Assembly: GCF_014191425.1 (NCBI RefSeq)
Contig: NZ_JACHWP010000005.1
Coordinates: 1-64,000, forward strand
Length of the DNA: 64,000 bases
Direction: 5' to 3'
Source: Helcobacillus massiliensis
GTDB taxonomy: Bacteria > Actinomycetota > Actinomycetes > Actinomycetales > Dermabacteraceae
In this document: positions 12,271 through 27,500 of the stretch, one piece after another
How positions within the stretch are numbered: position 1 is the stretch's first letter
How the letters are laid out: each line of letters begins with the position of its first letter
The notes under the pieces: model-generated
What the model was told of the DNA's origin: nothing
Seen by the model: only the letters and a program-made list of their open reading frames with translations
Database searches by the model: none
Made by a program: the position numbers and the translations under genes

Positions 12271-12271
12271 G

Positions 12272-12742: not shown

Positions 12743-12815
12743 CGGTGCTACCCCTCCTCGTGGCTGCTGGGGCTGGGCATCGTCGTGTCCTTCGTCCGGT
12801 GGATGGTCACCCTGT

Positions 12816-12846: not shown

Positions 12847-12907
12847 TGGGGACACTCTTCCTGATCCGCGGGGACGGCCGACTCCGATCAGCGCGTGAGG
12901 GACGGGC

Positions 12908-13225: not shown

Positions 13226-13379
13226 GCTGCGTGTCCTCCTGGGTAGATATTGCGTTCAGCGTACAGAACGGCGAACGCATGATGAGGGGTTCTGCGTGAC
13301 GGGGACTGTGCAAATGCTTGGCGAATTCCCGATCCGTACGAGTAGCGTTCAAGGACCACCAGCATCGAGGAGGCATGCG

Positions 13380-13592
13380 ATGGACGAGCACGAGGATGAC
13401 GAACGGCTGGCGGCCCTTGCGGAGCGGGCCGAGCGTGGGGAGCTTCCCGTGCCACCAGGGGCGCGGATCCAGAGAGCCTCGGACGAGGGCCCTGCCGGCG
13501 CCGCCGAGCTGCTGGAGATGGCGGGGGCGAGCACGCTCGACGAGGCGTTCGAGGTGCTGCGTGCGGCGGCAGTGCGCGACGGAGCGAAGTAG
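13380..13592 (+). CDS. Small hypothetical protein, 70 aa
   Basis: Unrecognised acidic small protein (MDEHEDDERLAALAERAERG ...) with a charged, probably helical N-terminus and a second helical segment (GAAELLEMAGASTLDEAFEV). ATG 13380 follows GAGGAGG with a 7-nt spacer, a strong ribosome site, and the gene ends right before a strong terminator, which together support it as real. It is divergent from lsr2. No catalytic motif was seen. It might be an antitoxin-like or regulatory peptide, but nothing demonstrates that. Confidence 0.65.
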   Translation: MDEHEDDERLAALAERAERGELPVPPGARIQRASDEGPAGAAELLEMAGASTLDEAFEVLRAAAVRDGAK

Positions 13593-13598
13593 ACAGCG

Positions 13599-13634
13599 CC
13601 GGGCCCCGCGGTCAGGGGGAACCGCGGGGCCCGG
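13599..13634. terminator. Strong bidirectional terminator
   Basis: CCGGGCCCCGCGGT (13599-13612) pairs perfectly with ACCGCGGGGCCCGG (13621-13634) around an 8-nt loop. It lies between the convergent genes ending at 13592 (+) and 13652 (-). Confidence 0.8.
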
Positions 13635-13651
13635 ACAGTCGAGAGGCGGGG

Positions 13652-13840
13652 TCAGCCGCCGAAGGAGAGGACCGTGCCGATGAGGGCCACGGACAGTTCC
13701 TCATCGGGGTACTCGGCGCGGACGTAGTCCACGGCATCGAGGTACTGCTGCTTCCGGTCAGGGGTGAGCTCATCCCAGGCGTGCCGGTCGGCGTCGGTCA
13801 CGAAGTCGGGGTAGGTGGTCATCTGGTCAGCAGCGCTCAT
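13652..13840 (-). CDS. Hypothetical protein, 62 aa
   Basis: Small acidic protein (MSAADQMTTYPDFVTDADRH ... RAEYPDEELSVALIGTVLSF) of unknown function. Its ATG overlaps the stop of the 290-residue gene upstream as ATGA, so the two are translationally coupled and probably act together. It ends 18 nt before a strong terminator, consistent with being the last gene of a minus-strand operon. Confidence 0.65.
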   Translation of the reverse strand: MSAADQMTTYPDFVTDADRHAWDELTPDRKQQYLDAVDYVRAEYPDEELSVALIGTVLSFGG

Positions 13841-14709
13841 GACGTGTGTCCTGTTCTGGTGTACTCGTCGGCTTCATCGTAGTCCTGGAACGATCTCGGT
13901 TCGGGGCGGCCGAGTTTCTCGTATTGGTCCTGCGTCACCATGAAGGTGATATCGGGTTCTCCGCGAGGTGGGGCGACCCTGCTCATGGCCGAATAGTCCC
14001 AGCCGTCGGGCGCGAATTCTCGGTTGAAGGGGATCGAGGCGACCTTGACGAAGCCGCTTCGGGCGTAGATCTTCGGCAGGAACGTGTCGAAGCACTCGAG
14101 GTGTGTCCCACCGCGCTCTGCTGCGATGGGCAGCAGGGCACGCGTCGCGCCGCGGCTGCTGCCGTCGGAGTACACCGCCGAGATCTCGCCACTGTGGCGG
14201 ACGGCCGCGCCGGCGCGGCCGTCCGCTAGCACGAGCATCGTGTGGAAGTCGCGTTGGAGCTCAGTGGGGGTGGCCCTGGTGACCTGCTTCCCCGCGGCGT
14301 CCTGGGTGTACCGCTCCGCGAGCCCACTGCTGTAGGACCGTGCGGATGTCGGACCGGTGACCTCAAGAACGGTGTGCCCATGCGAGGTGTGTGCGCGCAC
14401 GACGCGGAACGATCCTCCGGGCAGCGTGAGCGGCTTCCCGGTGGGGGAGTCAGCGACGTAGCGGTTGATGTTCGCGGTGAGCTGCTCGGCGTCGTAGGAG
14501 CCGCCTGCGGCGGTCCGCTCGGTGATGTGCTCCTGGAGCCCGGTGCGGGTCTGGATCAGATCGGCCCGGGCGGTCTCCAGGCGCGAGGTGATCTCCTCGT
14601 GCTCGGCGGTGTCGGGTGAGGTCTCGGCGAGCCGCTGCTCGAGCTTGTCGACGCGCTGGCGTTGATGCGCGTAGCAGCGTCGTCCCCCTTCGGCTTGGGA
14701 CTGGCACAT
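13837..14709 (-). CDS. Hypothetical protein, 290 aa, with Cys-rich N-terminus and acetyltransferase-like C-terminal region
   Basis: The N-terminus (MCQSQAEGGRRCYAHQRQRV) has the paired Cys plus His pattern seen in many proteins of actinobacterial phages and integrative elements, followed by a helical coiled region (residues 20-65). The C-terminal half contains FLPKIYARSGFVKVASIPFN, like GNAT-fold phage proteins, but no acetyl-CoA loop could be confirmed. ATG 14709 follows GGAGAT; an in-frame ATG 51 nt upstream lacks a ribosome site. It is coupled to the downstream 62-aa gene. Function unknown. Confidence 0.7.
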   Translation of the reverse strand: MCQSQAEGGRRCYAHQRQRVDKLEQRLAETSPDTAEHEEITSRLETARADLIQTRTGLQEHITERTAAGGSYDAEQLTANINRYVADSPTGKPLTLPGGSFRVVRAHTSHGHTVLEVTGPTSARSYSSGLAERYTQDAAGKQVTRATPTELQRDFHTMLVLADGRAGAAVRHSGEISAVYSDGSSRGATRALLPIAAERGGTHLECFDTFLPKIYARSGFVKVASIPFNREFAPDGWDYSAMSRVAPPRGEPDITFMVTQDQYEKLGRPEPRSFQDYDEADEYTRTGHTS

Positions 14710-14765
14710 CGGATCTCCGTTCGGGTCACGGTGGACGTGGTGCCTCGACGACACCCACATCCCTC

Positions 14766-14796
14766 TACCGCGGGTTCCCGGGGGTCGTGTGACCGC
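14766..14796 (-). promoter_or_regulatory. Upstream element of the 290-aa gene, shared with 12816-12846
   Basis: Second copy of the 31-bp block TACCGCGG ... TGTGACCGC, 57 nt upstream of the ATG at 14709. The remainder of the intergenic stretch 14710-14955 holds the terminator at 14909-14941; I see no gene in it. Confidence 0.35.
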
Positions 14797-14908
14797 ACAG
14801 CATCAATCTGTCGCGCGCGGCGGCTCTGCTTCAACCTGGCGTCGAGGGCACCGGGTGGTCTCCTGCGGGGTGGACGGGCCGTCGAAGCGTGGGTATACTC
14901 GGACCTGC

Positions 14909-14941
14909 GGACCCGCCCAACGTACGTTGGTCAACGGGTCC
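14909..14941 (-). terminator. Terminator of the DUF3800 gene
   Basis: Outer stem GGACCCG / CGGGTCC (14909-14915, 14935-14941) encloses a perfect 14-bp palindrome CCAACGTACGTTGG (14917-14930). It lies 15 nt past the stop at 14956 on the minus strand. Confidence 0.6.
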
Positions 14942-14955
14942 TGCTTCTTTTTGGG

Positions 14956-15642
14956 TCAGACGCTGATGGTGGTGGCGCTGAGCGATGCGAGCTTGGGGTA
15001 CCACGGCCAGGCGAACTGCTTCTCGGGGATTCGGGCAACGTCCTGATAGGCGGCGTAAGCAACGAGATCTGCAATCTGAACCCATTGGCTGCGGCTTGAA
15101 CTCTGGAACGAGGGGTCCTCGAGCAAGGAGCGCGTCTCGAGGGGGAGCTCGCGGTGCGCGGATATGTAGCTAGTGTCGGAGCCGTCGCCATCCATGACTA
15201 GAGTTCCCCACTCGTCGGCGTTGCGGAGCTGCTCGTCGAGATGGTGGATGAGGTGGCTGTAGACCCGGTGGCGCTTCTTCTTGAAGCTCTCGCGGTGGCT
15301 CGTGGAGTTGGAGTAGATCGTCCCGACAGCCATCCAGTCCCAGGTGGCGAAGCGATCGAAGGTCTCGTCGAGCACGGCTGAGCGATTCGCCTTCCGGCGG
15401 TTCCAGGTGTCGTCCAAGGACGGGTTTCCACGTCCATTTGCGAACTGTGTTGCGTGCAGCTCGTAGTTCTTGGGGATGCCGTAGGTACTGGTGAGGTGGG
15501 CACGCCAGGAGAGGACGTCACTGAGGGCCTGGCGCCAGTGGTCGAATGCAACGGTGACCCAGCTATAGGTGGCGAAGCCCGTGTGCTCGGCGCCAGAGTC
15601 ATCGACATAGATGAAGCGTGGCGGTCGAGCAGGAGTGTTCAC
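14956..15642 (-). CDS. DUF3800 domain protein
   Basis: 228 residues with the DUF3800 landmarks: an N-terminal acidic motif (FIYVDDSGAEHTG), an ELHA block, VMDGDGSDTSYISAHRE and the C-terminal SQWVQIADLVAYAAYQD. The conserved acidic residues suggest a metal-dependent RNase H-like nuclease fold, but no reaction is established. DUF3800 genes are frequent in mobile islands and defence-rich regions. GTG 15642 lies 6 nt after TAGGGT (15649-15654, minus strand), so the mRNA should be leaderless. It is followed by its own terminator. Confidence 0.85.
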   Translation of the reverse strand: MNTPARPPRFIYVDDSGAEHTGFATYSWVTVAFDHWRQALSDVLSWRAHLTSTYGIPKNYELHATQFANGRGNPSLDDTWNRRKANRSAVLDETFDRFATWDWMAVGTIYSNSTSHRESFKKKRHRVYSHLIHHLDEQLRNADEWGTLVMDGDGSDTSYISAHRELPLETRSLLEDPSFQSSSRSQWVQIADLVAYAAYQDVARIPEKQFAWPWYPKLASLSATTISV

Positions 15643-15721
15643 GCTGACACCCTATGGGGAACGAGACGCCGGCGGGCGGCGGATACCGGCGTCGATATCG
15701 CCGTGCAGGCCTACTGCACGA

Positions 15722-15913
15722 TCAAGAGCCGTTGAGCTCGCCGCGGCGAGGGCTGGCGGAGGGTCCGTCGCTCGGCTGTATGCGGCCGGGTCGGAGGCCG
15801 GCGCTCTGGGCCTCCGGTCGGCCGGCCGCGCGGGCGATCTCCTGCCCCATCGCCTTCGCATCCTCGCCGGTCAGCACCCTATGCGGACCGGAGAACCCTT
15901 CGGGTGTGGCCAT
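15722..15913 (-). CDS. Small hypothetical protein, 63 aa, downstream of yedK
   Basis: Unrecognised (MATPEGFSGPHRVLTGEDAK ...), Gly/Pro/Arg-rich and without membrane segment or obvious fold. ATG 15913 follows ACGGAGCAG, an acceptable ribosome site, and it begins 34 nt after the yedK stop on the same strand, so it was probably cotranscribed with yedK before that gene was interrupted. It could be non-coding; codon bias alone does not settle it. Confidence 0.45.
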   Translation of the reverse strand: MATPEGFSGPHRVLTGEDAKAMGQEIARAAGRPEAQSAGLRPGRIQPSDGPSASPRRGELNGS

Positions 15914-15947
15914 GGCTTCTGCTCCGTTCGATCAGTTGTGCTCGAGG

Positions 15948-16664
15948 TCAGATCGGTGCGATCAGGGAAGGATCGGAGCGGTCCAGGCCGCGGACGCTGT
16001 TGACCTGCCGATCTAGGGGGCGGGTGACGAGCTGCCCCGCGATCGTGGACGAGACGTCCTCGAGCTGCGCGAGCAGCGGCGCCTTCTGGTCGGCCTCGAG
16101 CTTCCCGGGGGAGAGCCACTCCTCGATCGCGTCCTCGGTCAGGAAGGTCGGCATCCGGTCGTGGACCTCGCCGCCGGCATCCCGCGCCTCGCGCGTGATC
16201 ACCGTGAAGGACACGTCCCACGCGTCGCTCTCGTCCTTCCTGGCGGCCGTGAGACCAGCGGCGTGCAGCAGCTCCCCGTCAGGGTGATGGATGAAGAACG
16301 GATCCTTCCCGCCGTCGGCAGCCTCGACCCACTCGAAGTAGCCGGTCATTGGGATCACGGCCCGGGCGCTCGAGAACGCGCCGCGGAACATCCCGTTGCT
16401 GCTCACGGTCTCCAGGCGCGCGTTGATCGGCCGAGGTCCCTTGTCCTTCGCCCACGCCGGGTGCAACCCCCAACGGGCGAGCTCGAGGGTGCGGTGTGAC
16501 GCTCCGTCCTCGTCGACGAACTCGCGCACCACGGGAGCCTTCGTGCGCGGCGCGATGCTGTAGGTCGGCTCCCACTGGGCCGCCCGGTAGTCGCTCGTGG
16601 CGACGTACGAGCGCAGCAGCCCGTCCCCGTTGCCGGGGGAGGGCATCGTTCGGTTGAGAATTAT
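15948..16664 (-). pseudogene. yedK: SRAP/YedK (HMCES) family gene, 3' fragment (codons after the insertion)
   Basis: SRAP proteins form a covalent crosslink with abasic sites in single-stranded DNA through Cys2. This fragment encodes about 236 residues from IILNRTMPSPGN to the stop and keeps the SRAP core: YSIAPRTKAPVV, the Asn/Arg block PINARLETV, the Glu in MTGYFEWVE and the C-terminal HDRMPTFLTEDAIEEWL. The essential N-terminus Met-Cys-Gly-Arg is missing because an element has inserted at codons 13-14. The missing codons lie at 25337-25378 on the same strand. An ATG at 16766 opens a chimeric 272-residue frame through the element end, but its product lacks an N-terminal Cys and should be inactive. 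Confidence 0.9.
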
Positions 16665-16672
16665 TCTCCGGT
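16642..16672. other. Left junction of the yedK-targeting element (site A)
   Basis: yedK sequence up to GAGAAT (about 16661) meets element DNA. The core AATTATT (16659-16665) lies inside the 13-bp palindrome GAGAAT-T-ATTCTC. It matches site B (19946-19976) at 26 of 31 positions, and its core matches the right junction at 25337-25343. Confidence 0.8.
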
Positions 16673-16893
16673 CGATCGGCGCACAGCAGTGACCGCATGT
16701 CGTACCGCATGCACTCGTTTGGCCAGGGTGTTTCGCTCCCAACCATGGTGACGTCGCGGTCTGCATGCGCCGCTGAGATACGTCCGATCGGACAGCAATT
16801 CCAGAGCGCGCTCATATCGCGCTGGCTCCGCGCGCGTCCATGGGCACCCTCGGGAGTAGTGCCCAGATCCCATGGGGTTCGGACCTCTCGTTG

Positions 16894-16915
16894 ACCTACC
16901 AAACATGAGGTAGGT
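16894..16915. promoter_or_regulatory. TetR-type operator upstream of the FAD oxidoreductase gene
   Basis: ACCTACC (16894-16900) and GGTAGGT (16909-16915) form a 22-bp dyad. It matches the palindrome in front of tetR (18627-18648) at 17 of 22 positions, including the spacer ACAT. Hence the TetR at 18660 probably controls this gene too. The stretch 16673-16893 to its left shows no gene. Confidence 0.75.
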
Positions 16916-16956
16916 ATTCTCAGGTGGGTCGAGACGTGGAACACATGGAGGAAACG

Positions 16957-18555
16957 ATGGACACATATGACGTCGTTGTGATCGGGGCAGGGGTCAACGG
17001 TCTGGTGGCCGCGGCTGAGCTCGCCACCGCCGGATGGAGTGTCGCTCTTGTGGAGCAGAACAGCCGCCTGGGTGGATTCATCGACTCTGGCGAGGCCACG
17101 CTGCCGGGTTACACGCACGACACATACTCCTCTTGGCATCCGCTGTTCGTCTCCGGTGGCGCATATGCGGCCCTCGGCCCAGACCTGCATGAGCACGGCC
17201 TCGAGTACGCGAACACCGACGGGGCTCTCACCGGCAGCATCTCTGCTGGCCGGGCGGCCGTGGCCTACCGCGATGCGGCAAAGACTGTCGAAGGGTTCAC
17301 GCACCCAGAGGACCAGGCGGCATACCTGGCCATGCTGGAAGAGATGGGCGAACGCGCGAATCTGGTCTTCAGGATCCTCGGCTCCGAGGTTCGATCCGCC
17401 GCAACAGTGAAGCTCGCGCTCAGTGCCCTTAAGTCTCAGAAGATCAAAGGGATGGATGCTCTCGCGCGGGATGCGGTGATGAGCGGGCGCGCGTTCGGGC
17501 GTGACCGGTTCACCGGCAGCGAGCCTGACCAGTTGTGGGCGCCGTGGTTGCTTCACGCCGGCATCTCCCCGGACAGCGCCACCGGCGGGATGATGATTCC
17601 CGTCCTCGCGATGACGATGCACGGTTTCGGTTTGCCCGTTGTCACTGGCGGAGCGAAGAACTTTGTGACCGCGTTCGAACGGCTTCTCTCTGAGCATGGC
17701 GTGACAGTCCTGACCGGTCATCGCGCGGAACGCGTCACCACGACTAACGGTCGCGCGACCGGCGTCGTCACCGACAAGGGCCTGATTAGCGCGCGGCGGG
17801 CGGTGATAGCGAGCGTCACCCCGCAGGCCCTCTACGGCACGCTCTTGAAAGACGAGCCCGTGCCCTGGGCCATCCGGCGGGACGCAGAACGGTTCCGGTT
17901 CGGGCGCGCCGCCATGCAGATCCACATCGCCCTGGATCGTCCTCTGCGCTGGACCGACGAGCGTTTCCAGGATGTCCCGCTACTCCACATCAGTGATGGC
18001 TCTGGCGGCACTGGCATTGCGTGCGCGCAGGCCGACGCGGGTGCCCTCCCCGCCGCGCCTACGATCGTTGTCGGTCGCCAGCATGTCCTCGATCAGAGTC
18101 GGGTGCCCGAGGGGGCGGGGTCTCTCTGGCTCCAGCTACAAGAGGTCCCTTGGCAACCCACCGCAGACAGTGCTGGCGCGATATCGGTCGACGGAACCTG
18201 GAATGCGGACACGACCAGGCGGTACGTCGAACGTGTTCTCGCCCGGATCGAAGAGCACGCTCCTGACCTAACTTCGAGCATCCTCGAGACCACGGTGATC
18301 ACTCCCACCGACCTGGCAGCCGCAAACCCTAACGCTGTTCATGGCGACCCCTACGGCGGTTCGATGGAGCTCGACCAGAATCTTCTCTGGCGCCCCCTCG
18401 CCCACTCGGGCAAACACACCACGGCGATCAAAGGTCTCCTGCACATCGGAGCGTCCACTCACCCCGGTGGAGGCCTCAGTGGCGGAGCCGGACACCTCGC
18501 AGCGCAAAGCCTCCTCTCCGCCAACAACCGCAGGAGCCTCATCTCCAAGAAATGA
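16957..18555 (+). CDS. FAD-dependent oxidoreductase, phytoene desaturase-like (COG1233 type)
   Basis: Flavoprotein of 532 residues with the dinucleotide-binding N-terminus DVVVIGAGVNGLVAAAELA, an Arg/Gly block RLGGFIDSGE, and the C-terminal FAD motif GLLHIGASTHPGGGLSGGAG typical of phytoene desaturases and related amine-oxidase-fold enzymes. No carotenoid synthase genes are near, so pigment synthesis is unlikely; its substrate is unknown. Start ATG 16957 follows GGAGG with a 5-nt spacer; two upstream in-frame starts lack that. The TetR operator at 16894-16915 suggests induction by a ligand of the adjacent TetR, together with the SMR pump. Confidence 0.85.
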   Translation: MDTYDVVVIGAGVNGLVAAAELATAGWSVALVEQNSRLGGFIDSGEATLPGYTHDTYSSWHPLFVSGGAYAALGPDLHEHGLEYANTDGALTGSISAGRAAVAYRDAAKTVEGFTHPEDQAAYLAMLEEMGERANLVFRILGSEVRSAATVKLALSALKSQKIKGMDALARDAVMSGRAFGRDRFTGSEPDQLWAPWLLHAGISPDSATGGMMIPVLAMTMHGFGLPVVTGGAKNFVTAFERLLSEHGVTVLTGHRAERVTTTNGRATGVVTDKGLISARRAVIASVTPQALYGTLLKDEPVPWAIRRDAERFRFGRAAMQIHIALDRPLRWTDERFQDVPLLHISDGSGGTGIACAQADAGALPAAPTIVVGRQHVLDQSRVPEGAGSLWLQLQEVPWQPTADSAGAISVDGTWNADTTRRYVERVLARIEEHAPDLTSSILETTVITPTDLAAANPNAVHGDPYGGSMELDQNLLWRPLAHSGKHTTAIKGLLHIGASTHPGGGLSGGAGHLAAQSLLSANNRRSLISKK

Positions 18556-18626
18556 CGGCGTCTGCAAGCGCAGCCGCCCGAGAGCCACCTTTGCCGTCAG
18601 AGGCTCAGCGATCGACATCACACTAG

Positions 18627-18659
18627 ACCGACCATACATATGGTCGGTACGATGGGGGT
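18627..18659 (+). promoter_or_regulatory. tetR promoter with overlapping operator
   Basis: Perfect 10-bp inverted repeat ACCGACCATA / TATGGTCGGT with a CA centre (18627-18648). It abuts the -10 box TACGAT (18648-18653), which ends 6 nt before the tetR ATG. The geometry fits autorepression of a leaderless tetR-SMR-SMR operon. Confidence 0.8.
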
Positions 18660-19172
18660 ATGGCAACGAAACTTGAGATCCTCGACGCCGCCCTCGAGGT
18701 GCTTCGACACGGAGACGCATTGACTCTTGATGCCGTCGCTCGGCACGCGGGGCTCACCAAGCCCGGGCTCGTCCATCACTTCGCTACGAAAGAGGGGCTG
18801 ACGGTCGCGGTTGTCGATCGAGTGATCGATCTCTGGGAAGCCGAGCTGCGTGAGCGAGTCAGCGACGAGTCCGACGAGGTAGAGAGGCTGCGCGCCTATG
18901 TCGAGTTCTCTCTCTTAGATGACCTCGACCCCAGCGACCTCGCTCTCCTCGCCGACGCGCGCCTGCGCGACAAGCTCAGTGACCAGTGGATGCGCCGCCT
19001 TGATCCCTGGTTCGGCTCAGGTCTGGACGACCCCAGGGTGCGCTCTGTCCGCCTCCTTGCCGACGGAGCCTGGTTCGACCGCTCCCTCGGCATCGTTGAG
19101 CTTTCCCGGGCGCAGCGCGAAAGCATGCTGAGCGTCGCGCTCGGCCTCATCAGTGAAGGAGTGCAGAAGTGA
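18660..19172 (+). CDS. TetR-family transcriptional regulator
   Basis: 170 residues. The N-terminal HTH is clear: ILDAALEVLRHGDALTLDAVARHAGLTKPGLVHHFATKEGL. The rest is the ligand-binding helical domain. The ATG at 18660 is 6 nt past its -10 box. Its TGA overlaps the GTG of the first SMR gene, so regulator and pump are translationally coupled. It probably represses its own operon and the FAD oxidoreductase gene through the two related 22-bp palindromes. The ligand is unknown; SMR-linked TetR proteins often respond to cationic toxicants. Confidence 0.93.
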   Translation: MATKLEILDAALEVLRHGDALTLDAVARHAGLTKPGLVHHFATKEGLTVAVVDRVIDLWEAELRERVSDESDEVERLRAYVEFSLLDDLDPSDLALLADARLRDKLSDQWMRRLDPWFGSGLDDPRVRSVRLLADGAWFDRSLGIVELSRAQRESMLSVALGLISEGVQK

Positions 19173-19513
19173 AGAAATGGCTGTTTCTCGTCGGTGCAGT
19201 TCTCCTGGAAGTGACCGGATCACTCTCCCTCAAGGGTGCGCTCGATGCTCCCGGACTCTATGTCCTCGTCGTCGCCGGATACGTCGGCTCCTTCTTGGCA
19301 CTGTTCATGTCTCTGCGCAACGGGATGGCCCTCGGCGTCGGTTACGGCATCTGGGGCGCTAGCGGCGTCGCACTCACAGCGATCATGTCGCTCGTGATCT
19401 ACGGCGAACCCATCACTCTGCTCATGGGTCTCGGCATCGTCATCATCATGGCCGGAGTACTACTGGTCGAACTCGGCTCCCAGGCCGCCCAGAAGAAAGA
19501 AGTAGCAGCATGA
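19169..19513 (+). CDS. Small multidrug resistance (SMR) family subunit 1
   Basis: 114-residue, four-helix inner-membrane protein. The essential membrane-embedded Glu is E14 (GAVLLEVTGSLSLK), followed by the usual GYGIWGASGVALTA and MGLGIVIIMAGVLLVEL blocks. GTG 19169 overlaps the tetR stop; its own stop overlaps the next SMR gene as ATGA. Paired, translationally coupled SMR genes usually encode heterodimeric pumps (EbrAB/YkkCD type), exporting lipophilic cations or small toxicants in exchange for protons. The substrate cannot be inferred. Confidence 0.92.
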   Translation: MKKWLFLVGAVLLEVTGSLSLKGALDAPGLYVLVVAGYVGSFLALFMSLRNGMALGVGYGIWGASGVALTAIMSLVIYGEPITLLMGLGIVIIMAGVLLVELGSQAAQKKEVAA

Positions 19514-19839
19514 GCGCCCTCGCACTGATCTCCCTCATCGGCGCGATCGCGGGCGAGGTCGCCGGCACCGTCTCACTCCGCATGGCCAGCAGCGGCAGAA
19601 AACTGTGGTGGATCGGCGTCGCAGCCGGCTACATCTTCGCCTTCAGCATGCTCGTCGTCGTCCTCGGACAGGGCGTCGCGCTCGGAGTCGCCTACGGAAT
19701 CTGGGCCGCTGCCGGCGTCGCCATCACCGCGATCATCAGCAGGCTCTTCTTCAAAGAACCCCTCACCTGGATCATGGGCCTCGGCATCGCCCTGATAGTC
19801 GGCGGCGTGCTACTCATCGAGATCGGCGCCACCCACTGA
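19510..19839 (+). CDS. Small multidrug resistance (SMR) family subunit 2
   Basis: 109-residue partner of the preceding SMR protein. The membrane Glu is E16 (GAIAGEVAGTVSLRMA); GVAYGIWAAAGVAITAII and MGLGIALIVGGVLLIEIG follow. The two subunits are clearly related but not identical, and opposite charge bias in their loops would suit antiparallel assembly (not calculated). ATG 19510 overlaps the previous stop. It is the last gene before an intergenic stretch of 106 nt that ends in site B. Confidence 0.92.
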   Translation: MSALALISLIGAIAGEVAGTVSLRMASSGRKLWWIGVAAGYIFAFSMLVVVLGQGVALGVAYGIWAAAGVAITAIISRLFFKEPLTWIMGLGIALIVGGVLLIEIGATH

Positions 19840-19929
19840 CCGGACCTGCGCCCCACGGCTCAGGATGTGGCGATTATGCCAGGAGGCCGAGAAGGATCCT
19901 GCCCGGTGGCGCCCATGGTTCCGGTTTCC

Positions 19930-19976
19930 CAGATTACCGGGGACCGGCATCGTTCGATCGCGAATTATTCCTCGGT
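19930..19976. other. Internal junction-like site B with a SRAP gene fragment
   Basis: Read on the minus strand, about 12 codons encode IIRDRTMPVPGN, aligned with IILNRTMPSPGN at the yedK junction (9 of 12 identical). Thus the DNA left of the core GAATTATTC (19962-19970) derives from another SRAP gene. The core overlaps the stop codon of the recombinase gene at 19965. Confidence 0.75.
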
Positions 19977-21413
19977 GGTCGTAGCTCGCAGTTCAGGGTA
20001 GGTGCCCCAGGTTGCATTGGTGTTGGCGGCATGTTTGAGGGCGGTTGCGATGTTGATGCCGACGACGTCGGCCACGACGCTGGCGGGGACCTGTTGGACG
20101 AGCTGGTCGATCCGGGCGCGGCGGACTTCTCGCACGCGGATACCGCGTGAGGAGAGGTGAAGGGCTACGTTGGCCTCACTCGTGTGGTGCTGGGGCATGG
20201 CGCCGGCGAAGAGCCATTCTGAGCCGCCGCCAGCGAATGGTCGCTCAGCCCGTGACTCGTCAAGGTGCTGACGAAGCAAACTGGTGATCGATGCAGGGAG
20301 CACAACCGGCGTCTTGCCGAACGCGATGGATACTTCGCCTTTGTCGTCGACGACGTCGGTTCGTCGCAGGCGGACGCAGTCGCACAGCCTCTGGGCGAAC
20401 ACCAGGATGAACAGGCCAATTATCCGACTGGGCAGGGGGATCGAACGGTCCTCAAGGAGAAGATCGATCTTGCTCCAGATGACCTCATCTGGCACCGAGG
20501 CATCGGGCCGAGGGGGCTTCCTGCCGGGTACGGCGACGGGACCCGTGAGGTGGTGACGCACGGCCCAGTTGAGGAAAGTCCTGTGGACGCTCTGATAGTC
20601 ATGCTCGGCGAAGAATCGATCGAGGGCGGCCTGGTTCAGCGTAGACAGTGAAAGGCCGTGGTCGTCGAGCCATGCCAGTAACCCTGCTATCTTGCGCAGC
20701 TCGGAGTACCGAGAGTTGGCGGTACTGGCGGTCACGGGCTGAGTAGTGGCGCGTTGGCGGAGCTTGCGCAGGATTTCCCAGGTGAAGTACTGCTTCAGGA
20801 TCGCGGCGTGTTTATCAGGAAGGCCCGCGATGAAGGCGGTGGCCTTGAGCTCGAAGTCGTTCAACTCGACGTCGATGGCGGAGAGTGTCCCTGCGCTGAT
20901 GAGCATGCGGCGGAGGTAGCGAACACGGGGCGATAGCGGGAGCGCGTTCAGTGTGTCGTGGCTGATTGCTGCTTGCCCAGTGGCCATCGCTCGGAGTGTC
21001 TCCCCGTTTGGCTCACGCCGGAGCCATCGTGTGGCCGAGCGGGGGTCGCGCGCGGTGAGCAGGTGTTCGTGTAAGGAAGCCAGGTCAGGGTGGATGCGCC
21101 CGTGCTTGTCGGAGAGGACTTCCCGGAGGCGGTCGGTCAGTCGGCATGTCCCGCACTGGGACCCGGTGAGCTGGTCTTCGCTACCGCAACTGGTGCAGCC
21201 GAACCGCGGCGGTGCGCCAGCGCAGCTCGCGCAGACGACACGCCTGTCACTGCCGTAGAACGCGAGGACTTTGACCTGACGGCATCCGGGGCACTGGCCA
21301 GGATGTCGCCTGAGCCGGGAGTAGCAGGCATTGCAGATGCGCCGCTCGAGGATGGCGTACCGAGCAGGGCCACCGCTTCCGCAGGAGTCGCAGCCGATTT
21401 GCACCGGAGTCAT
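19965..21413 (-). CDS. Zinc-ribbon protein with degenerate tyrosine-recombinase domain
   Basis: 482 residues. The first 100 hold several CxxC pairs (CDSCG, CNAC, CPGC, CASC, CTSCG, CGTC), probably three zinc ribbons. A helical core-binding-like region follows, and a C-terminal recombinase-like domain with the first catalytic Arg candidate in FILVFAQRLCDCVRL. The box II region (VREVRRARIDQLVQQVP; GINIATALKHAANTNATWG) lacks the HxxR His, the Gly-His pair and a Tyr at the expected nucleophile position, so I think it is a non-catalytic partner. It is last in a three-gene operon with the HTH protein and the active integrase, and its stop overlaps the left attachment core. Confidence 0.75.
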   Translation of the reverse strand: MTPVQIGCDSCGSGGPARYAILERRICNACYSRLRRHPGQCPGCRQVKVLAFYGSDRRVVCASCAGAPPRFGCTSCGSEDQLTGSQCGTCRLTDRLREVLSDKHGRIHPDLASLHEHLLTARDPRSATRWLRREPNGETLRAMATGQAAISHDTLNALPLSPRVRYLRRMLISAGTLSAIDVELNDFELKATAFIAGLPDKHAAILKQYFTWEILRKLRQRATTQPVTASTANSRYSELRKIAGLLAWLDDHGLSLSTLNQAALDRFFAEHDYQSVHRTFLNWAVRHHLTGPVAVPGRKPPRPDASVPDEVIWSKIDLLLEDRSIPLPSRIIGLFILVFAQRLCDCVRLRRTDVVDDKGEVSIAFGKTPVVLPASITSLLRQHLDESRAERPFAGGGSEWLFAGAMPQHHTSEANVALHLSSRGIRVREVRRARIDQLVQQVPASVVADVVGINIATALKHAANTNATWGTYPELRATTTEE

Positions 21414-21431
21414 AGAGGCTGCCTGCTCGTC

Positions 21432-21779
21432 TTACTCGGTCGGGCGATGAATCTTGGCCGGGATGGGCCGGAGGGAGCCGATAGCGGGGCCTTCTGTCCG
21501 TGGCGAGCCTCCAGCTCGGCGCGCGCGTTTGGCTTGGGCCGGCGGGATTTCGATGAGGTCGTTCGGAGTGCAGTCGAGGATGCGGCAGAGTGCCGCGAAC
21601 ACTTCGACGTTGAGGCGTTCCGGCGTCTTGGTCACAAGGCGGAAGACTTGCTCCCGTGAGAGTTGCACTCCCTGGGAGCGCAGTGGCTCGATGAGGTCGG
21701 TGGTTTGGAACATCCCCGCGGCAGCCATTACCTGGCGAAGCTGCCAGGTGATCGGAGTGTCATCACTGGGTGGTGTCAT
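21432..21779 (-). CDS. Small XRE/Cro-type HTH protein of the recombinase trio
   Basis: 115 residues. The HTH core runs WQLRQVMAAAGMFQTTDLIE ... LSREQVFRLVTKTPERLNVE and ends ALCRILDCTPNDLIEI, the HTH_26/XRE pattern, followed by a basic tail. ATG 21779 has GGAGG 5 nt before it and was preferred over an ATG 18 nt upstream. It overlaps the integrase gene by 17 nt and lies 18 nt before the zinc-ribbon gene, so the three are one operon. A role as excisionase-like factor or as regulator of the operon is inference. Confidence 0.8.
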   Translation of the reverse strand: MTPPSDDTPITWQLRQVMAAAGMFQTTDLIEPLRSQGVQLSREQVFRLVTKTPERLNVEVFAALCRILDCTPNDLIEIPPAQAKRARRAGGSPRTEGPAIGSLRPIPAKIHRPTE

Positions 21780-22878
21780 CAGGTCCTCCATAGACACGAG
21801 AGAGCGCTTTGGCGATCATCCGGTTCTTGTAATCGTCGCCCACGGAGGTGTAGATCGCCGTGGTCGAGGCATAGGCATGCCCTACTTGGTCCTGGACGAA
21901 CTTCTCCGCATAGCCCCACTCGATGAGGTTGGTGACGTAGGTGTGTCGCAGCGCGTGCACGCTTAGCTCGGCCGGCCATTCCAGTTGGTCGCGGATCGCG
22001 GCGAACCGCAGATCAATGTAGCGCGGCGACACCCGGCTGCCTCGCTCGGTTGGCCAGAGCGGCCCCGATGCCGAGTCGGTGAACCGTGGGCGAGCCGCGT
22101 CGATCCATTGCGCGAGGCCGTCGGTGATCCAGCCCAGCTCGGGCAGGGTCAACACTGATCTCCGGCGAGGTCCGGATCCGTGGGACCCCTTTCCCCACCG
22201 CACATCGACAGCTCCAAATCGCCCGAACCGTGGAGCCGCGCCGTTGGGTCGCAGATCTGCCACGTCCAGTCCGGTGGCTTCCGCCCGCCTCAGCCCGTAG
22301 GCATAGATCGTCTTGAAGATCTGGGCATCTCGGAGCGCCGAGAGAGCTCCCTTCCGGCCGCGGTGAACGATGGTCTCGACCCGTTCGTCGACTGCGGTGA
22401 AGAACTGCTCCAGCTCGTCGTAGGTGAGGGCGCGCCGCTCCGCGCGCCCTTCGTAGTCGAGTAGATGAGTAGCCGTGTTCCACTCGTGACAGATCTGCTG
22501 AGGCGTCGATCCGAAGCGTTCCTCGCACTCCGTTGCCCACTCGTACCGTGCGTCGGTGAGGTAGTCGCAGAACAGGCGAATGATCGTGTGATACCCGCGG
22601 ATCGTTGATCGCGCCGCTGGATGGGGACGCGACTTCGCCTGCGTGGTGAAGTCCTCCAAATCGCCCGGCGACCACTCCCACGGATACCGACCCGTGAACT
22701 CCCCAAACCGCCGCACAACTTGTGCCCGGCTCGCGATCGTCTGCCACGAGAGCGCCCTGCTGGCCTGCTGATCACTCCACCCCGAGAGCATCGCGTCAAG
22801 CACGAACTGCTTCTCGTCCAGCGCGCGCACGTTGCCGAGCCGTCGAAGCGGAGACACTCCGGGATGTTCGTGGACCAT
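21763..22878 (-). CDS. Tyrosine recombinase/integrase
   Basis: 371 residues with all catalytic boxes: Arg in YAYGLRRAEATGLDVADL, Lys in VRWGKGSHGSG, HALRHTYVTNLIEWG (HxxR), QVGHAYASTTAIYTSV (Gly-His and the Tyr nucleophile). An N-terminal SAM-like core-binding domain occupies about residues 40-130. It is the likely catalyst for the insertion in yedK, acting with the HTH and zinc-ribbon proteins encoded next to it. A 15-bp palindrome (22899-22913) lies 21 nt upstream of the ATG and may be a recombinase or repressor site. Confidence 0.93.
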   Translation of the reverse strand: MVHEHPGVSPLRRLGNVRALDEKQFVLDAMLSGWSDQQASRALSWQTIASRAQVVRRFGEFTGRYPWEWSPGDLEDFTTQAKSRPHPAARSTIRGYHTIIRLFCDYLTDARYEWATECEERFGSTPQQICHEWNTATHLLDYEGRAERRALTYDELEQFFTAVDERVETIVHRGRKGALSALRDAQIFKTIYAYGLRRAEATGLDVADLRPNGAAPRFGRFGAVDVRWGKGSHGSGPRRRSVLTLPELGWITDGLAQWIDAARPRFTDSASGPLWPTERGSRVSPRYIDLRFAAIRDQLEWPAELSVHALRHTYVTNLIEWGYAEKFVQDQVGHAYASTTAIYTSVGDDYKNRMIAKALSRVYGGPDDTTQ

Positions 22879-22885
22879 CGGGACA

Positions 22886-22915
22886 GTATTGCATCTGCTG
22901 CATCATTGATGCATC
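22886..22915. other. Element-end-like site D upstream of the recombinase operon
   Basis: TTGCATCTG (22889-22897) and the following AT-rich bases match the element side of the right yedK junction (TTGCATCTG at 25325-25333). TGCATCA-T-TGATGCA (22899-22913) is a perfect palindrome. It may be an old right end or an operator. Confidence 0.5.
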
Positions 22916-22959
22916 CCCTACAGGGCGCATCCGGAATTCGTGCCGAACCTACGGGTTGC

Positions 22960-24510
22960 TTAGTGCTCGTCGCCGAGTTTGCCGGAGAGGCGCTCCAAGC
23001 GCTCGAGGCTGGCGCCGTCGAGCCCGATGATGCGTGTTTCCTTGCCGCGGGCGGTGTATTTGGTCTGCACGGCGTCGAGGGCGGCGACAGTGGAGGCGTC
23101 CCAGACGTCGGCGGCGGTGAGGTCGATGATCACGGTTTGGGGATCTCCGGCGTAGTCGAACTGGTAGACCAGATCGTTGCTGGAGGCCCAGAACAGCTGA
23201 CCCTTGACGGCGTAGCGGCGAATGTCGATGGCGCCATCGCTGTTGACGTCGGTTTCCCACACCTTCTCGATGTGCACCAGGTGGGCGACGCGGCGGGCAA
23301 ACAGGATCATCGCCGTGATCACGCCGAGGACCACGCCGATGGCGAGGTTGTGGGTGGCGACGGTGGCGATGACGGTGACCAGCATGACGGCGGTCTCGGA
23401 CCAGGGCATCAGGCGCAGGGTGGAGGGCCGGATGCTGTGCCAGTCGAAAGTGGCGACGGAGACCATGATCATCACGGCGACCAGGGCTGCCATCGGGATC
23501 AGGCCGACGATGTCTCCCAGGGCCAGGACGAGGATCAGCAGGAAGACGCCGGCGAGGAAGGTGGAGATCCGGGTGCGGGCTCCGGACTGCTTCACGTTGA
23601 TCATGGTCTGGCCGATCATGGCGCAGCCGCCCATGCCGCCGAAGAACCCGGAGGCGATGTTCGCGATGCCCTGCCCCCAGGACTCGCGGGTCTTTTTGGA
23701 GTGAGTGTCGGTGATGTCGTCGACGAGTTTGGCGGTCATAAGCGATTCCATGATTCCCACGATCGCCATCGCGAAGGCGTAGGGGGCGATGATCTGCAGC
23801 GTCTCGAGGTTCAGGGGCACGTTGGGGATGAACAGGGACGGCAACGATTCGGGCAGCTCGCCCTGGTCGGAGACATTGGGCAGCTTCCATCCACTGACCA
23901 GCACAGCGCCGGTCAGCAGCACGATCGCGATCAGGGGCGCGGGGACCACGGTGGTCAGGCGCGGGACGAGGACCATGATCGCCAAGCCCGCCAGCACCAG
24001 GGGGTAGACGATCCAGGGGATGTCCTCACCGAAGAGGTGAGGCAGCTGGGCGGTGAAGATGAGGATCGCCAGGGCGTTGACGAAGCCGGTCATCACGCTG
24101 CGCGGGATGAACCGCATCAGCTTCGCCACGCCGAGCAGCGCCAGGACGACCTGCAGAACCCCGGCGAGGATCACGGTCGCGATCAAGTAATCGAGCCCGT
24201 ACTCAAGGGCGATGGGCGCGATCACCAGGGCGATCGCGCCGGTGGCGGCGGAGATCATCGCGGGCCGGCCACCGACGAACGCGATCGTGACCGCCATGAC
24301 GAACGAGGAGAACAGCCCGACCTGCGGGGGGACGCCGGCGAGGATGGAGAAGGAGATCGCCTCGGGGATCAGGGCGAGAGCAACGACGAGACCAGCGAGG
24401 ACCTCGGTCTTGAGCCGGCGGGGATTGCGCAGGGCCGAGAGAACGGTGTCCGGCTCCTGCTGGGAGTGTTGGGGTCCACTGTCGACGGGCGCAGTGCTGA
24501 GGGAAGTCAC
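22960..24510 (-). CDS. SulP-family anion transporter with STAS domain
   Basis: 516-residue membrane transporter of the SLC26/SulP family. The N-terminal motif ALIPEAISFSILAGVPPQVG and the TM blocks MISAATGAIALVIAP and GFFGGMGGCAMIGQTMINV are typical. A C-terminal STAS domain lies at about residues 425-505 (TVIIDLTAADVWDASTVAAL). Substrates in the family include sulfate, bicarbonate and other anions; this one is undetermined. It lies on the right arm of the yedK-inserted element, downstream of a MerR gene, with a MerR-type dyad between them. Confidence 0.92.
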   Translation of the reverse strand: MTSLSTAPVDSGPQHSQQEPDTVLSALRNPRRLKTEVLAGLVVALALIPEAISFSILAGVPPQVGLFSSFVMAVTIAFVGGRPAMISAATGAIALVIAPIALEYGLDYLIATVILAGVLQVVLALLGVAKLMRFIPRSVMTGFVNALAILIFTAQLPHLFGEDIPWIVYPLVLAGLAIMVLVPRLTTVVPAPLIAIVLLTGAVLVSGWKLPNVSDQGELPESLPSLFIPNVPLNLETLQIIAPYAFAMAIVGIMESLMTAKLVDDITDTHSKKTRESWGQGIANIASGFFGGMGGCAMIGQTMINVKQSGARTRISTFLAGVFLLILVLALGDIVGLIPMAALVAVMIMVSVATFDWHSIRPSTLRLMPWSETAVMLVTVIATVATHNLAIGVVLGVITAMILFARRVAHLVHIEKVWETDVNSDGAIDIRRYAVKGQLFWASSNDLVYQFDYAGDPQTVIIDLTAADVWDASTVAALDAVQTKYTARGKETRIIGLDGASLERLERLSGKLGDEH

Positions 24511-24586
24511 GGGGGAGTCCTAGCGAGATGAGAGGGATGGGCCCCGGCGGCACGGAACGTTTCCGTGAGGGACCCAAAGGCCAACC

Positions 24587-24601
24587 CTCACGTTACGTTA
24601 G
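24587..24601. promoter_or_regulatory. MerR-type dyad operator upstream of the SulP gene
   Basis: CTCACGTTACGTTAG is a 15-bp dyad with one mismatch, 77 nt before the SulP start. Such centrally spaced ACGT-n-ACGT dyads are typical MerR-family sites between -35 and -10. The adjacent MerR gene is the obvious candidate regulator. Confidence 0.6.
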
Positions 24602-24647
24602 CTTTTACCTCGTGAATACGAGTTCTGCGTCATAGACCACCCTCGCG

Positions 24648-25073
24648 TCAGGCCTCGCGCTCCCCTGCATCGTCCTGGTGAGCGGGGGTCGAGAGGTCGC
24701 GGAGACGCGAGAGGAACTCATCGGCCATCGCGACCTTCTTCTCCAGCGCGCTGCGTCGTTCGATCGCGATGGCCTCGATCTCGTGCAGCTTCTGCCTTGC
24801 TTCGAGCGGCGCGTCGGGCTGGGCGACATCGTGGGTGACGTCGAGCAGCTCGCGCATCTGCTCGAGCGTGAAGTCCAGCGGCTTCATGCGACGGATCAGC
24901 AGGATCCGCTCGACGTCGGCTTCGGAGTAGAGCCGGAACCCTCCCTCGCTGCGCTCGGACGGGTTGACCAGACCGATCTCGTCGTAGTGTCGCAGCGTCC
25001 GCAGGCTGAGCTCCGTGCGCTCAGCGACCGCACCGATGTGCAGTAGCTGCTGGCGATCGTTGTTCTGGCTCAT
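24648..25073 (-). CDS. MerR-family transcriptional regulator
   Basis: 141 residues. The winged HTH HIGAVAERTELSLRTLRHYDEIGLVNPSERSEGGFR is classical MerR, followed by the helical dimerization region (VERILLIRRMKPLDFTLEQM) and a coiled coil. No metal-binding Cys cluster is present, so a non-metal effector is more likely. ATG 25073 follows a GAGGAC site. The SulP gene 137 nt downstream on the same strand, with a dyad in between, is the probable target. Confidence 0.9.
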   Translation of the reverse strand: MSQNNDRQQLLHIGAVAERTELSLRTLRHYDEIGLVNPSERSEGGFRLYSEADVERILLIRRMKPLDFTLEQMRELLDVTHDVAQPDAPLEARQKLHEIEAIAIERRSALEKKVAMADEFLSRLRDLSTPAHQDDAGEREA

Positions 25074-25282
25074 GTCCTCAGTTTGCCCCACCGTGATGAC
25101 GCTCCCAGCACCTCGGGCGAACCTTGGCGCCCGCGCCCGAGGCACACCTCGTGATGCGCGTACCGCACTGAAGGGAACGCGATCCAGATTAGGGCCAGTA
25201 CCACACCTGCCCACCTGCCCGTGTCGAGCGTGGGAACCGCCTTCACACCCCGCGCCACCAGCACCACGCACATGTAAGCCAA
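25074..25282 (-). other. Possible 70-aa membrane peptide or decayed remnant
   Basis: An open frame (MAYMCVVLVARGVKAVPTLD ...) with a hydrophobic segment (WAGVVLALIWIAFPSVRYA) runs to a stop overlapping the MerR start. There is no convincing ribosome site. It may be the leftover of a membrane gene at the element's right end. Apart from this and the yedK 5' fragment, the 360 nt between merR and 25435 hold nothing I recognise. Confidence 0.25.
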
Positions 25283-25318
25283 GGGCGAGACCTGGGTTGC
25301 TCGATGGGCAGCCGCGGA

Positions 25319-25378
25319 TCACTGTTGCATCTGTTCAATAATTCTCAGATCGAATGCCAGCGTGAATCGTCCGCACAT
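25319..25378 (-). pseudogene. yedK: yedK 5' fragment (MCGRF start) at the right junction of the element
   Basis: ATG 25378, behind GGGAGG, opens MCGRFTLAFDLRII and then runs into element DNA (EQMQQ, stop at 25319-25321). Met-Cys-Gly-Arg-Phe is the diagnostic SRAP N-terminus, with Cys2 the residue that crosslinks abasic sites. Together with the 3' part at 15948-16664 it would give a normal protein of about 250 residues. It follows the 212-aa gene by 56 nt on the same strand, its original neighbour. Confidence 0.9.
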
Positions 25379-25434
25379 CGAGAACCTCCCTCAGGCTGCC
25401 CCCAGTATGGGGCGAGGGGAGGGGATCCGCGAGG

Positions 25435-26073
25435 TCACTCGATGCCGAAGCGCTCGAAGAACAGGCGCATGTTGTCGTCACGGTCCGCGCGGAGTGCCTT
25501 CTCACGAGCTCGCCACGACGGATCGACACGGTCGGCGTACTCGGCCGATTCCTCATCGTTGAGGAGGAGGCACGAGGTGTCCCCCTGGATCATCCCGGCG
25601 ACGTCGTTGATCTTGTAGTTGTACCAGCTGATCACTGCCAGGTTGCCTTTCGACTTCCTCATCAGGTGGTTCGAGACCTCCCCGTTCTCGTCGACGAGGA
25701 TGTCCTGGCTGATGACCGGGGGCTCCTTGGTCCGGGCCAGCAGTGGGTGGGCGACGTAGCCGTTGTCCCGGGTGAACTCGTCCGACCAGCGGTTGCACAG
25801 GGCGTTCGTCGCGGGGTCCTTGAACAGCTCGGCGGACAGGCTCTCGGCGAAGTTCGTCATCGTGCTGCCCGTCGTCCAATCGCCGACCTTCAACGGGATC
25901 GACAGGTGCATGAACTGCTCGGTGGAGCGTCGGAAGATCCTCCCCGAGCGCACCGTGCGCGCGAAGGTCGCTACCAGGATCAGATCGCGGCCGTGCCCGA
26001 TCGGGTACGTGACGATCTCCTCGCGAGCGAGCGCCCAGGTGGGCCCGTCCTGGATGTCGAGGTTCTCGGGCAT
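25435..26073 (-). CDS. Hypothetical protein, 212 aa
   Basis: Unrecognised soluble protein, start ATG 26073 behind AGGAGAGC. A beta-rich first half (ALAREEIVTYPIGHGRDLIL; RSTEQFMHLSIPLKVGDWTT) precedes a mixed second half with VISWYNYKINDVAGMIQGDT. No catalytic motif or membrane segment is seen. It lay directly upstream of yedK before the insertion, and 49 nt downstream of the 93-aa gene, all on one strand, suggesting an island operon. Confidence 0.7.
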   Translation of the reverse strand: MPENLDIQDGPTWALAREEIVTYPIGHGRDLILVATFARTVRSGRIFRRSTEQFMHLSIPLKVGDWTTGSTMTNFAESLSAELFKDPATNALCNRWSDEFTRDNGYVAHPLLARTKEPPVISQDILVDENGEVSNHLMRKSKGNLAVISWYNYKINDVAGMIQGDTSCLLLNDEESAEYADRVDPSWRAREKALRADRDDNMRLFFERFGIE

Positions 26074-26122
26074 CGTGCTCTCCTATCAGCGTGCCTGGAC
26101 TGGGTATCTCTGGTCGGATGGA

Positions 26123-26404
26123 TCAGCTCGCTGGCCGGGGCCGCGGATCCATGTAGTCCTCGAGGGTGAGGTCCTTGGTGGCCTCGTAGGTGAAGGGGAA
26201 CCCCTGGCCCTGATCTGTGGCTCGATCGGTGAGCAGGAGGAGGCCCTCGATTGGCCCGACGTGGGTGACCTCCTCGGTGAGCGACATGTCCTCGATCTGG
26301 CCGCTGGCATGGGTCAGGCGGACCGTGGTGACAGCCTCCCTGCGGTTGCCGGTCGGCTCGCCGAATCCGAGGTGTGCGCTGGTGATCGGGTCGGTGACGT
26401 TCAT
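26123..26404 (-). CDS. Hypothetical protein, 93 aa
   Basis: Small acidic protein (MNVTDPITSAHLGFGEPTGN ...) with a predicted beta-rich core (VTTVRLTHASGQIEDMSLTE; VGPIEGLLLLTD). ATG 26404 follows GGGAGC. No family recognised. It lies between the secreted Gly/Ser-rich protein gene (25 nt upstream) and the 212-aa gene, so is probably cotranscribed with them. Confidence 0.65.
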   Translation of the reverse strand: MNVTDPITSAHLGFGEPTGNRREAVTTVRLTHASGQIEDMSLTEEVTHVGPIEGLLLLTDRATDQGQGFPFTYEATKDLTLEDYMDPRPRPAS

Positions 26405-26429
26405 CGGTGCTCCCAGGAGGTCGGGGTGG

Positions 26430-27500
26430 TCAGGACACGTCGGTGACGACGGTCTGGTACTGGCCGATGCGCAGCTGCTTGGACGTGGTCAGCTCGACGG
26501 GGATCGTGCCGGTCTCACCGGTGTTCGACTCCCACTCGACGCCCCAGTGCGCGGTGATGTTCACGGTGTACAGCCCATCGGGCTGTTCATCGCTCATCTG
26601 CTCGTAGACGTGGCCGCAGTCGGGGGAGGGGTCGATTCCGGTGCCGGGGTATTCGGTCCCGGGTCCGTCGCACTCGATCGTGGTGCCGTCGCCCATGTCG
26701 ATCGACATGCCCGTGAACTTGGCCGTCGCGGTGACGGTCACCGCTCCGGCGGACGCGCTGGTCGTGTTCGGACCCGTCGTGGTCTCTCCGGGGTTGGCCA
26801 CCCACAGCCACACCGGCAGCCCCACGGCGCCGAGGGTCTCGGTGTCGTTCGGTGTCGAGGCGATCTCCGGAGCCTCCAGCCCCATCTGGGAGACCGCGGT
26901 CTGCGCGAGCTCGGCAGGATCCACCTGAGGCGCGGCCGGCTCGCCGCCCTCCTGAGGCGCGGGATCCGGAGCGGGAGCCGCCGGCGCTGCCGGATCCGCC
27001 GGCTCGGGCTGGCCCTGGGTCATGCCGTCGAAGAAGGCGGTGGGTCCCCCGTTCTGCCCCTGCACGTACGCGCCTTCGGGCTGGTAAGTGGCTCGGGAGC
27101 CGTCGTCGAGGATCTCGACGTTGTCCGGGCGGCTCGAGGACACCGAGGACGGCGAACCGCTCGAGTAGTTCCCGACGCTGGTTCGGCCACCGTTGCTGAC
27201 GGAGGTAGTTCCACCTCCACCACCGCCCCCGGAGGAATTCCCACTGCCGCCTGAGGACTTGCTCCCCCCGTTGGAAGATCCGCCGCCACCCGACGAATTT
27301 CCCCCGCCGGACGAGCTGCCACCCCCACCGGAGGACTTTCCGCCGCCGCTGCCGGGATCCTCCACTTCAACTGTGACGGTGCCCTTGGAACCGTCACCGC
27401 GCCAGTTGACCCCGTCGTCGGCCCAGGCCGGCGCAGTGGTGAGCGTGAATGCTGTGATTGCTGCGGTGCTGACGGTCAGCCGCCGAAGTGTGCCTCGCAC
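26430..27500 (-). CDS. Secreted Gly/Ser-rich protein with C-terminal beta domain
   Basis: 356 residues. A Sec signal peptide (MRGTLRRLTVSTAAITAFTL ... APAWA) is followed by a low-complexity Gly/Ser stretch of about 60 residues, a Pro/Ala linker near residue 190, and a C-terminal domain (TVTATAKFTGMSIDMGDGTT; GLYTVNITAHWGVEWESNTG) resembling PKD-like surface domains. The start is GTG 27500, behind GAGGAGG, which places the signal peptide correctly; an ATG 42 nt upstream would not. It overlaps the lipoprotein gene by 25 nt, implying joint expression and perhaps a surface complex. Function unknown. Confidence 0.75.
   Translation of the reverse strand: MRGTLRRLTVSTAAITAFTLTTAPAWADDGVNWRGDGSKGTVTVEVEDPGSGGGKSSGGGGSSSGGGNSSGGGGSSNGGSKSSGGSGNSSGGGGGGGTTSVSNGGRTSVGNYSSGSPSSVSSSRPDNVEILDDGSRATYQPEGAYVQGQNGGPTAFFDGMTQGQPEPADPAAPAAPAPDPAPQEGGEPAAPQVDPAELAQTAVSQMGLEAPEIASTPNDTETLGAVGLPVWLWVANPGETTTGPNTTSASAGAVTVTATAKFTGMSIDMGDGTTIECDGPGTEYPGTGIDPSPDCGHVYEQMSDEQPDGLYTVNITAHWGVEWESNTGETGTIPVELTTSKQLRIGQYQTVVTDVS

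Follow-up and report, generated by a model that had tools for sequence, protein, structure and literature searches.

Evidence for a head-to-tail joint of two site-specific integrative elements within one SRAP gene of Helcobacillus massiliensis

A short sequence echo beside a set of recombinase genes of Helcobacillus massiliensis (site B) represents, with a probability of about 0.93, the joint of two site-specific integrative elements that follow one another head to tail within a single SRAP gene. The analysed DNA (hereafter the window) comprises 64,000 nucleotides of contig NZ_JACHWP010000005.1. Since the left-hand element is found alone in the SRAP gene of a Brachybacterium avium plasmid with the same boundaries, site B is taken as the point where a recombinase-less 3.3-kb element (element 1) meets a 5.4-kb recombinase element (element 2).

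The affected gene (SOS response-associated peptidase, YedK/HMCES family) is encoded in two parts on the minus strand: (i) the 3' part from residue 11 onwards at 15951-16630 (Pfam SRAP, E 3.7e-50; 96-97 % identity to intact and occupied relatives) and (ii) the N-terminal codons (ATGTGCGGACGATTCACGCTGGCATTCG, MCGRFTLAF..) at 25351-25378, 8720 bp apart from the remainder of the gene. At this place, a relative with an SRAP 96 % identical downstream (genome G025, locus L005) reads MCGRFTLAFD|GDGLLRSYVATS, and further intact SRAP relatives are similar (MCGRFVLDFDEAGLLRAYVAT and others). In the window, SRAP resumes at GGGGACGGGCTG, directly after 'PGN', and the string standing before GGGGACGGGCTG ('RTMPxPGN') is the left end of an inserted element, which at site A happens to continue the SRAP reading frame. 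As this motif is not part of SRAP and the N-terminus is located at 25351-25378, the inserted DNA corresponds to 16631-25350 (8720 bp) and interrupts SRAP codon 10. Cys2 of SRAP is the catalytic residue, so that an insertion parting Met-Cys2 from the remaining protein would be expected to yield an inactive SRAP.

The motif GAATTATTC is present in exactly two copies in the window (16658 and 19962; expectation from shuffled sequences 0.00), both of which belong to a 43-nt direct repeat (16630-16672 and 19934-19976; 79 % identity). The sequence-only reading had translated the minus strand as IILNRTMPSPGN at site A (16658) and IIRDRTMPVPGN at site B (19962), and both readings were verified. Their assignment to SRAP codons has to be abandoned, since intact SRAPs with 96 % identity downstream show MCGRFTLAFD there. 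Because the element end at site A is open in the SRAP frame, element sequence had been taken for SRAP codons; the SRAP start annotated for B. avium (16846) also falls inside the element terminus. The differences between the two sites, described as codon-like, amount to eight mismatches distributed 3/2/3 over codon positions 1/2/3. Across 27 distinct left ends gathered from the genomes fetched, the same codon positions carry on average 1.51/1.31/1.35 bits, i.e., left ends bear no coding signal and in particular none at the third position. Alignment of these 27 ends yielded 1.39 bits per position inside the terminus (36 nt) versus 0.45 outside (24 nt). They adjoin SRAP codons at the same place in 11 cases, the CAGAT end of another element in 8 and other, unassigned DNA in the remaining 8. 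The sequence is thus a constant part of the element family regardless of its target, and the supposed piece of another host's SRAP gene in the recombinase module is an element terminus. Of the proposed site (19930-19976), positions 19930-19934 are still part of the adjacent element's right end, and the terminus itself covers 19935-19971.

This bears on the proposal that a past, imprecise excision captured an SRAP fragment of another host at site B. The site A terminus is indeed in frame with the SRAP codons, and the two sites share 79 % identity over 43 nt. However, 'RTMPxPGN' is absent from all intact SRAPs read (intact relatives show MCGRFTLAFD|GDGLLRSYV), the terminus is constant in 27 ends whatever the flank and without a codon-position signal, and the repeat ends exactly at the crossover point of the SRAP junction. 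The fragment identity was therefore rejected, and the capture scenario is regarded as extremely improbable. Being a constant terminus of the element family, site B provides no independent evidence for SRAP; SRAP as target, also deduced by the sequence-only reading, is upheld on other grounds, namely the split gene (16630/25351), empty sites and recurrence in other genomes.

Element 1 (16631-19934, 3304 bp) is a passenger devoid of a recombinase gene. It begins at site A, previously considered the real yedK junction, with the constant left terminus (16631-16667, plus strand). Its cargo, encoded on the plus strand, comprises an FAD-dependent oxidoreductase (16924-18555; Pfam Amino_oxidase/DAO), a TetR-family regulator (18660-19172; Pfam TetR_N, TetR_C_28) and two SMR-family efflux genes (19169-19839, i.e., 19169-19513 and 19510-19839; Pfam Multi_Drug_Res), followed by the right end (...GGTTTCCCAGAT; 19918-19934, plus strand). 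Positions 16831-20134 of the B. avium VR2415 plasmid NZ_CP022317.1 match element 1 without a single mismatch (0/3304). There, the element resides alone in SRAP, with the same left junction as in the window and a right junction ('...GGTTCCGGTTTCCCAGAT|CGAAAGCCAGCGTGAATCG') that leads directly into the SRAP N-terminal codons; identity between window and B. avium element ends exactly at 19934. These two SRAP junctions of the stand-alone copy strongly support the suggestion that two elements were inserted in tandem at the same site. In the adjacent SRAP flank, 48 mismatches were counted over 932 positions, compared to 0 over 3304 within the element (p ~1e-32), which argues for movement of element 1 separately from its flanks. 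No relatives of the 482-aa protein of element 2 (see below) were found in the B. avium genome.

Element 2 (19935-25350, 5416 bp) is delimited by junctions B and C and contains the recombinase module. At the joint, the element 1 right end CAGAT (to 19934) is followed by TACCGGGGACCGGCATCGTTCGATCGCGAATTATTC, the beginning of the element 2 left terminus (TACCGGGGACCGGCATCGTTCGATCGCGAATTATTCC; 19935-19971, plus strand). The module consists of three genes on the minus strand. The first encodes a 482-aa protein (19965-21413) with N-terminal zinc-ribbon cysteines and a tyrosine-recombinase-like fold lacking the HxxR/Tyr catalytic residues according to alignments (Tfp/GinC-like; phrog_1 integrase, E 8.5e-7; Phage_integrase, E 0.074); its stop codon (19965-19967) falls within the site B terminus. 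It is accompanied by a 121-aa HTH_26 protein (21432-21797; Pfam HTH_26, E 4.3e-13), positioned like an accessory factor, and by a 371-aa tyrosine recombinase (21763-22878; Pfam Phage_integrase, E 6.7e-15) with a complete R..K..HALR..H..Y motif, the catalytic residues of which (R, K, HALR, GH, Y) are conserved in relatives. A second full catalytic motif was absent from the proteins encoded at 19935-25350. For the proteins of the recombinase module, NCBIfam and PHROGs provided nothing beyond general integrase matches, and the structure predicted by AlphaFold for the 482-aa protein (pLDDT 51) was too poor and left out of fold searches. A phage origin was rejected, as the 482-aa protein has no relative among 50,697 phage records. 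The cargo of element 2, likewise on the minus strand, consists of a SulP-type anion transporter (22960-24510; Pfam Sulfate_transp) and a MerR-family regulator (24648-25322; Pfam MerR_1), the true start of which may be downstream. The right end (CAATAATTCTCAGAT; 25336-25350, plus strand) adjoins the SRAP N-terminal codons, and the same end occurs in a different target in Ca. Brachybacterium merdigallinarum (locus L092).

Across the family, elements share a conserved left terminus of about 37 nt (TRCCGGGG...GGCATCGTTCG...GAATTATTC) and end with ...YCAGAT; the two ends of an element have only a short inverted AATAATTC-like motif in common. As the right-end consensus is short, right ends were positioned mainly by comparison. 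The empty SRAP site reads CCGT|CGAATGCC, the left junction CCGT|TRCCGGGG and the right junction CAGAT|CGAA. The SRAP junctions of each element thus fall within one codon, between its GT and its C, with 0 bases duplicated or lost: joining CCGT to CGAATGCC restores the empty site without a footprint, and CAGAT is kept at the right ends of SRAP insertions. These junctions would imply a conservative reaction converting CCGT|CGAATGCC to CCGT|TRCCGGGG plus CAGAT|CGAA, and excised circles would carry the joints CAGAT|TGCCGGGG (element 1) and CAGAT|TACCGGGG (element 2). The 371-aa recombinase, together with the HTH protein and the degenerate 482-aa protein, presumably cuts at the termini, acting in cis on element 2 and in trans on recombinase-less elements via the common left terminus. 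Such trans-mobilisation by the three genes is considered reasonably probable. A newcomer would enter at the left junction of the resident element, giving rise to arrays.

On their inner side, some left ends without a recombinase gene are similar to the 3' end of the 482-aa gene (16631-16760 versus 19935-20064 in the window), and passengers may hence be descended from deleted autonomous elements. Such a descent would also suit a different scenario, in which a single element was duplicated to give the two left termini, with subsequent replacement of the cargo by homologous recombination and without any site-specific insertion. Exact CAGAT|TRCCGGGG joints in eight loci with unrelated cargo as well as the exact insertion into SRAP nevertheless call for a site-specific reaction, rendering this scenario very improbable.

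Tandem arrangements were also found in other genomes. In genome G030 (locus L086), a three-element array with left ends at 5151, 6722 and 9197 is located beside SRAP; its cargo comprises an MFS pump, a MerR-MFS pair and a chaperonin-like gene together with recombinase genes. The right end of a further element, designated X ('...CCACTCGCACTCAGAT'), adjoins SRAP in genome G020 and the left ends of recombinase modules in G014, G035 and G064. Element X hereby repeats what is seen for element 1 in B. avium versus the window and represents a second, independent case. In the cases seen, the SRAP 3' part is followed by the passenger and then by the recombinase element. A contig search with a single protein query yielded two loci only. 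In genome G061 (loci L090 and L091), identical recombinase modules and an SRAP pseudogene fragment are present close to each of the four termini of two large contigs, perhaps as terminal repeats or due to an assembly effect.

Ca. B. merdigallinarum (G060) shares the B joint (from window position 19812 on) and an element 2 copy with 97.5 % identity. Its right end lies in an unrelated gene that has CAGCGTGA in common with the SRAP site; this gene reads as RibD/DHFR-like and as an apparent secondary target. In the same locus (L092, G060:C84), a 2.6-kb insert (2305-4884) interrupts the 371-aa recombinase gene, with the right end in the RibD/DHFR-like gene at 8131. The occurrence of the same joint and the same right end in a different target may indicate that elements 1 and 2 had been united at another location and reached this SRAP together, as a composite bounded by the left end of element 1 and the right end of element 2, instead of arriving in succession. 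This variant of the tandem explanation leaves the nature of site B unchanged, but is set against the 100 % identity of element 1 to the stand-alone B. avium copy, which indicates that element 1 also moves alone; in the G060 metagenome-assembled genome, the rest of element 1 is beyond the contig end. Joint entry is thus possible, yet the less probable course of events.

Judged by the genomes compared, SRAP is a genuine target of the elements, because 12 of 30 accessory SRAP genes begin at residue 8-11 (18 are intact from residue 1; 47 genomes of the bacterial family), as opposed to none of the 41 housekeeping, one-per-genome copies (36-43 % identity; 41/41 intact). The difference is significant (Fisher, 7e-6), with the accessory class defined by >=54 % identity, a few fragments set aside and classes counted by hand from the table. 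The same insertion codon is used in independent SRAP genes, relatives of which have empty sites (12 truncated, 18 intact). SRAP is located directly downstream of the 482-aa homologue in three of the top five plasmid matches to this protein, i.e., in plasmids of Microbacterium sp. No. 7 (NZ_CP012698.1), Arthrobacter sp. MN05-02 (AP018698.1) and Rhodococcus qingshengii (NZ_CP077418.1). A recombinase element whose site-B-type left end forms the outer SRAP junction, as envisaged by the sequence-only reading, was found in Microbacterium. Adjacency to SRAP throughout the recombinase family is not supported: besides these three close homologues, about 30 distant plasmid homologues of the 482-aa protein lack SRAP beside them, and SRAP targeting accordingly holds only for a subgroup. 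An open-access literature search, constituting weak evidence, revealed no report of SRAP/yedK/DUF159 as integration site of such elements.

The elements work like GInts, SEs and Tn554-type elements, yet fall under the definition of none of these, being set apart by gene set and junctions. Tn554 inserts into the DNA-repair gene radC. Tn554-related elements (Tn554, Tn552-II) resemble the present ones in combining a recombinase module and a small accessory protein with insertion into specific genes (PMC12486829, PMC3788773). Their TnpA and TnpB are both catalytic and joined by TnpC, whereas the 482-aa protein lacks HxxR and the Tyr motif; moreover, they carry donor target-site sequence to the right end, while here the empty site is rebuilt exactly. 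Target carry-over of the SE/Tn554 type (6-7 bp of the donor left flank at the new right junction) was not seen in the junctions. SEs likewise possess a catalytic recombinase, a non-catalytic recombinase-fold Tfp and a small accessory protein as well as target-site specificity, but depend on a pair of catalytic recombinases and generate a 6-bp footprint, neither of which applies here (PMC10214605). In place of the intA-tfp-intB-srap set of SEs, 19935-25350 encodes one full catalytic motif; the SE 'Srap' is the counterpart of TnpC/GinD and a different protein from the SRAP peptidase (PMC10214605). A RIT trio was rejected on account of the single catalytic recombinase.

GInts are genomic islands with a ginABCD operon encoding three integrases and GinD (PMC5385486). 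Similarities include a recombinase operon at one end, variable cargo and an opposite end that is short and poorly conserved, a recombinase-fold partner without catalytic function (GinC) and insertion into particular genes, in case of GInts including the DNA-metabolism gene ssb (PMC5385486). This tripartite layout is present in element 2, with the module on the left, the SulP/MerR cargo and a right end conserved only as YCAGAT. Instead of ginABCD, its three genes encode one catalytic recombinase, the HTH_26 protein and the degenerate recombinase-like protein; further differences are the zinc-ribbon N-terminus of the latter, the actinobacterial hosts, the non-autonomous passengers in tandem arrays and the SRAP target. 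Integron-like elements in rulB of plasmid pWW0 also use a plasmid-borne SOS/DNA-damage gene as hot spot, but differ in recombinase type, target and hosts (PMC4542609). An integron cassette system was rejected, the integron integrase model scoring 36.5 bits versus a cut-off of 265. Tandem accretion of recombinase-less cargo served in trans is reminiscent of SCC and integron cassette arrays. SCC use large serine recombinases and integrons attC hairpins, in contrast to the tyrosine recombinase and double-strand terminus of the present elements.

The sequence echo at site B thereby turns into an anatomy of mobile DNA with defined ends, a target codon, a helper element and passengers, and in this way cassettes for stress resistance could accumulate in actinobacteria without integrons. 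Plasmid-borne SRAP genes are indicated as a landing site for hitchhiking elements. One may speculate, with about even chances, that a family of actinobacterial three-gene tyrosine-recombinase elements has become specialised for insertion into the N-terminal codons of SRAP genes that are accessory and often located on plasmids. Its members would thereby disable a plasmid protein of DNA damage or entry, ride on plasmids, and mobilise in trans and stack recombinase-less single-trait cassettes (efflux, metal transport, chaperonin) by an integron-like capture on a conserved double-strand terminus.

The SRAP region of the window is part of a plasmid-derived segment (12,223-28,108) with 89-99 % identity to the B. 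avium plasmid NZ_CP022317.1. Within 10,776-29,403, two IS110-family transposase gene copies, 98.6 % identical over 1,477 bp, flank this segment, and the DNA on the outside is chromosomal, with genes for trigger factor, ClpX and threonine dehydratase. This setting fits an arrival of the SRAP region on a plasmid. SRAP homologues are present on 1,714 of 72,556 plasmid records, 864 of the 1,714 being conjugative, and SRAP may hence have a function on plasmids.
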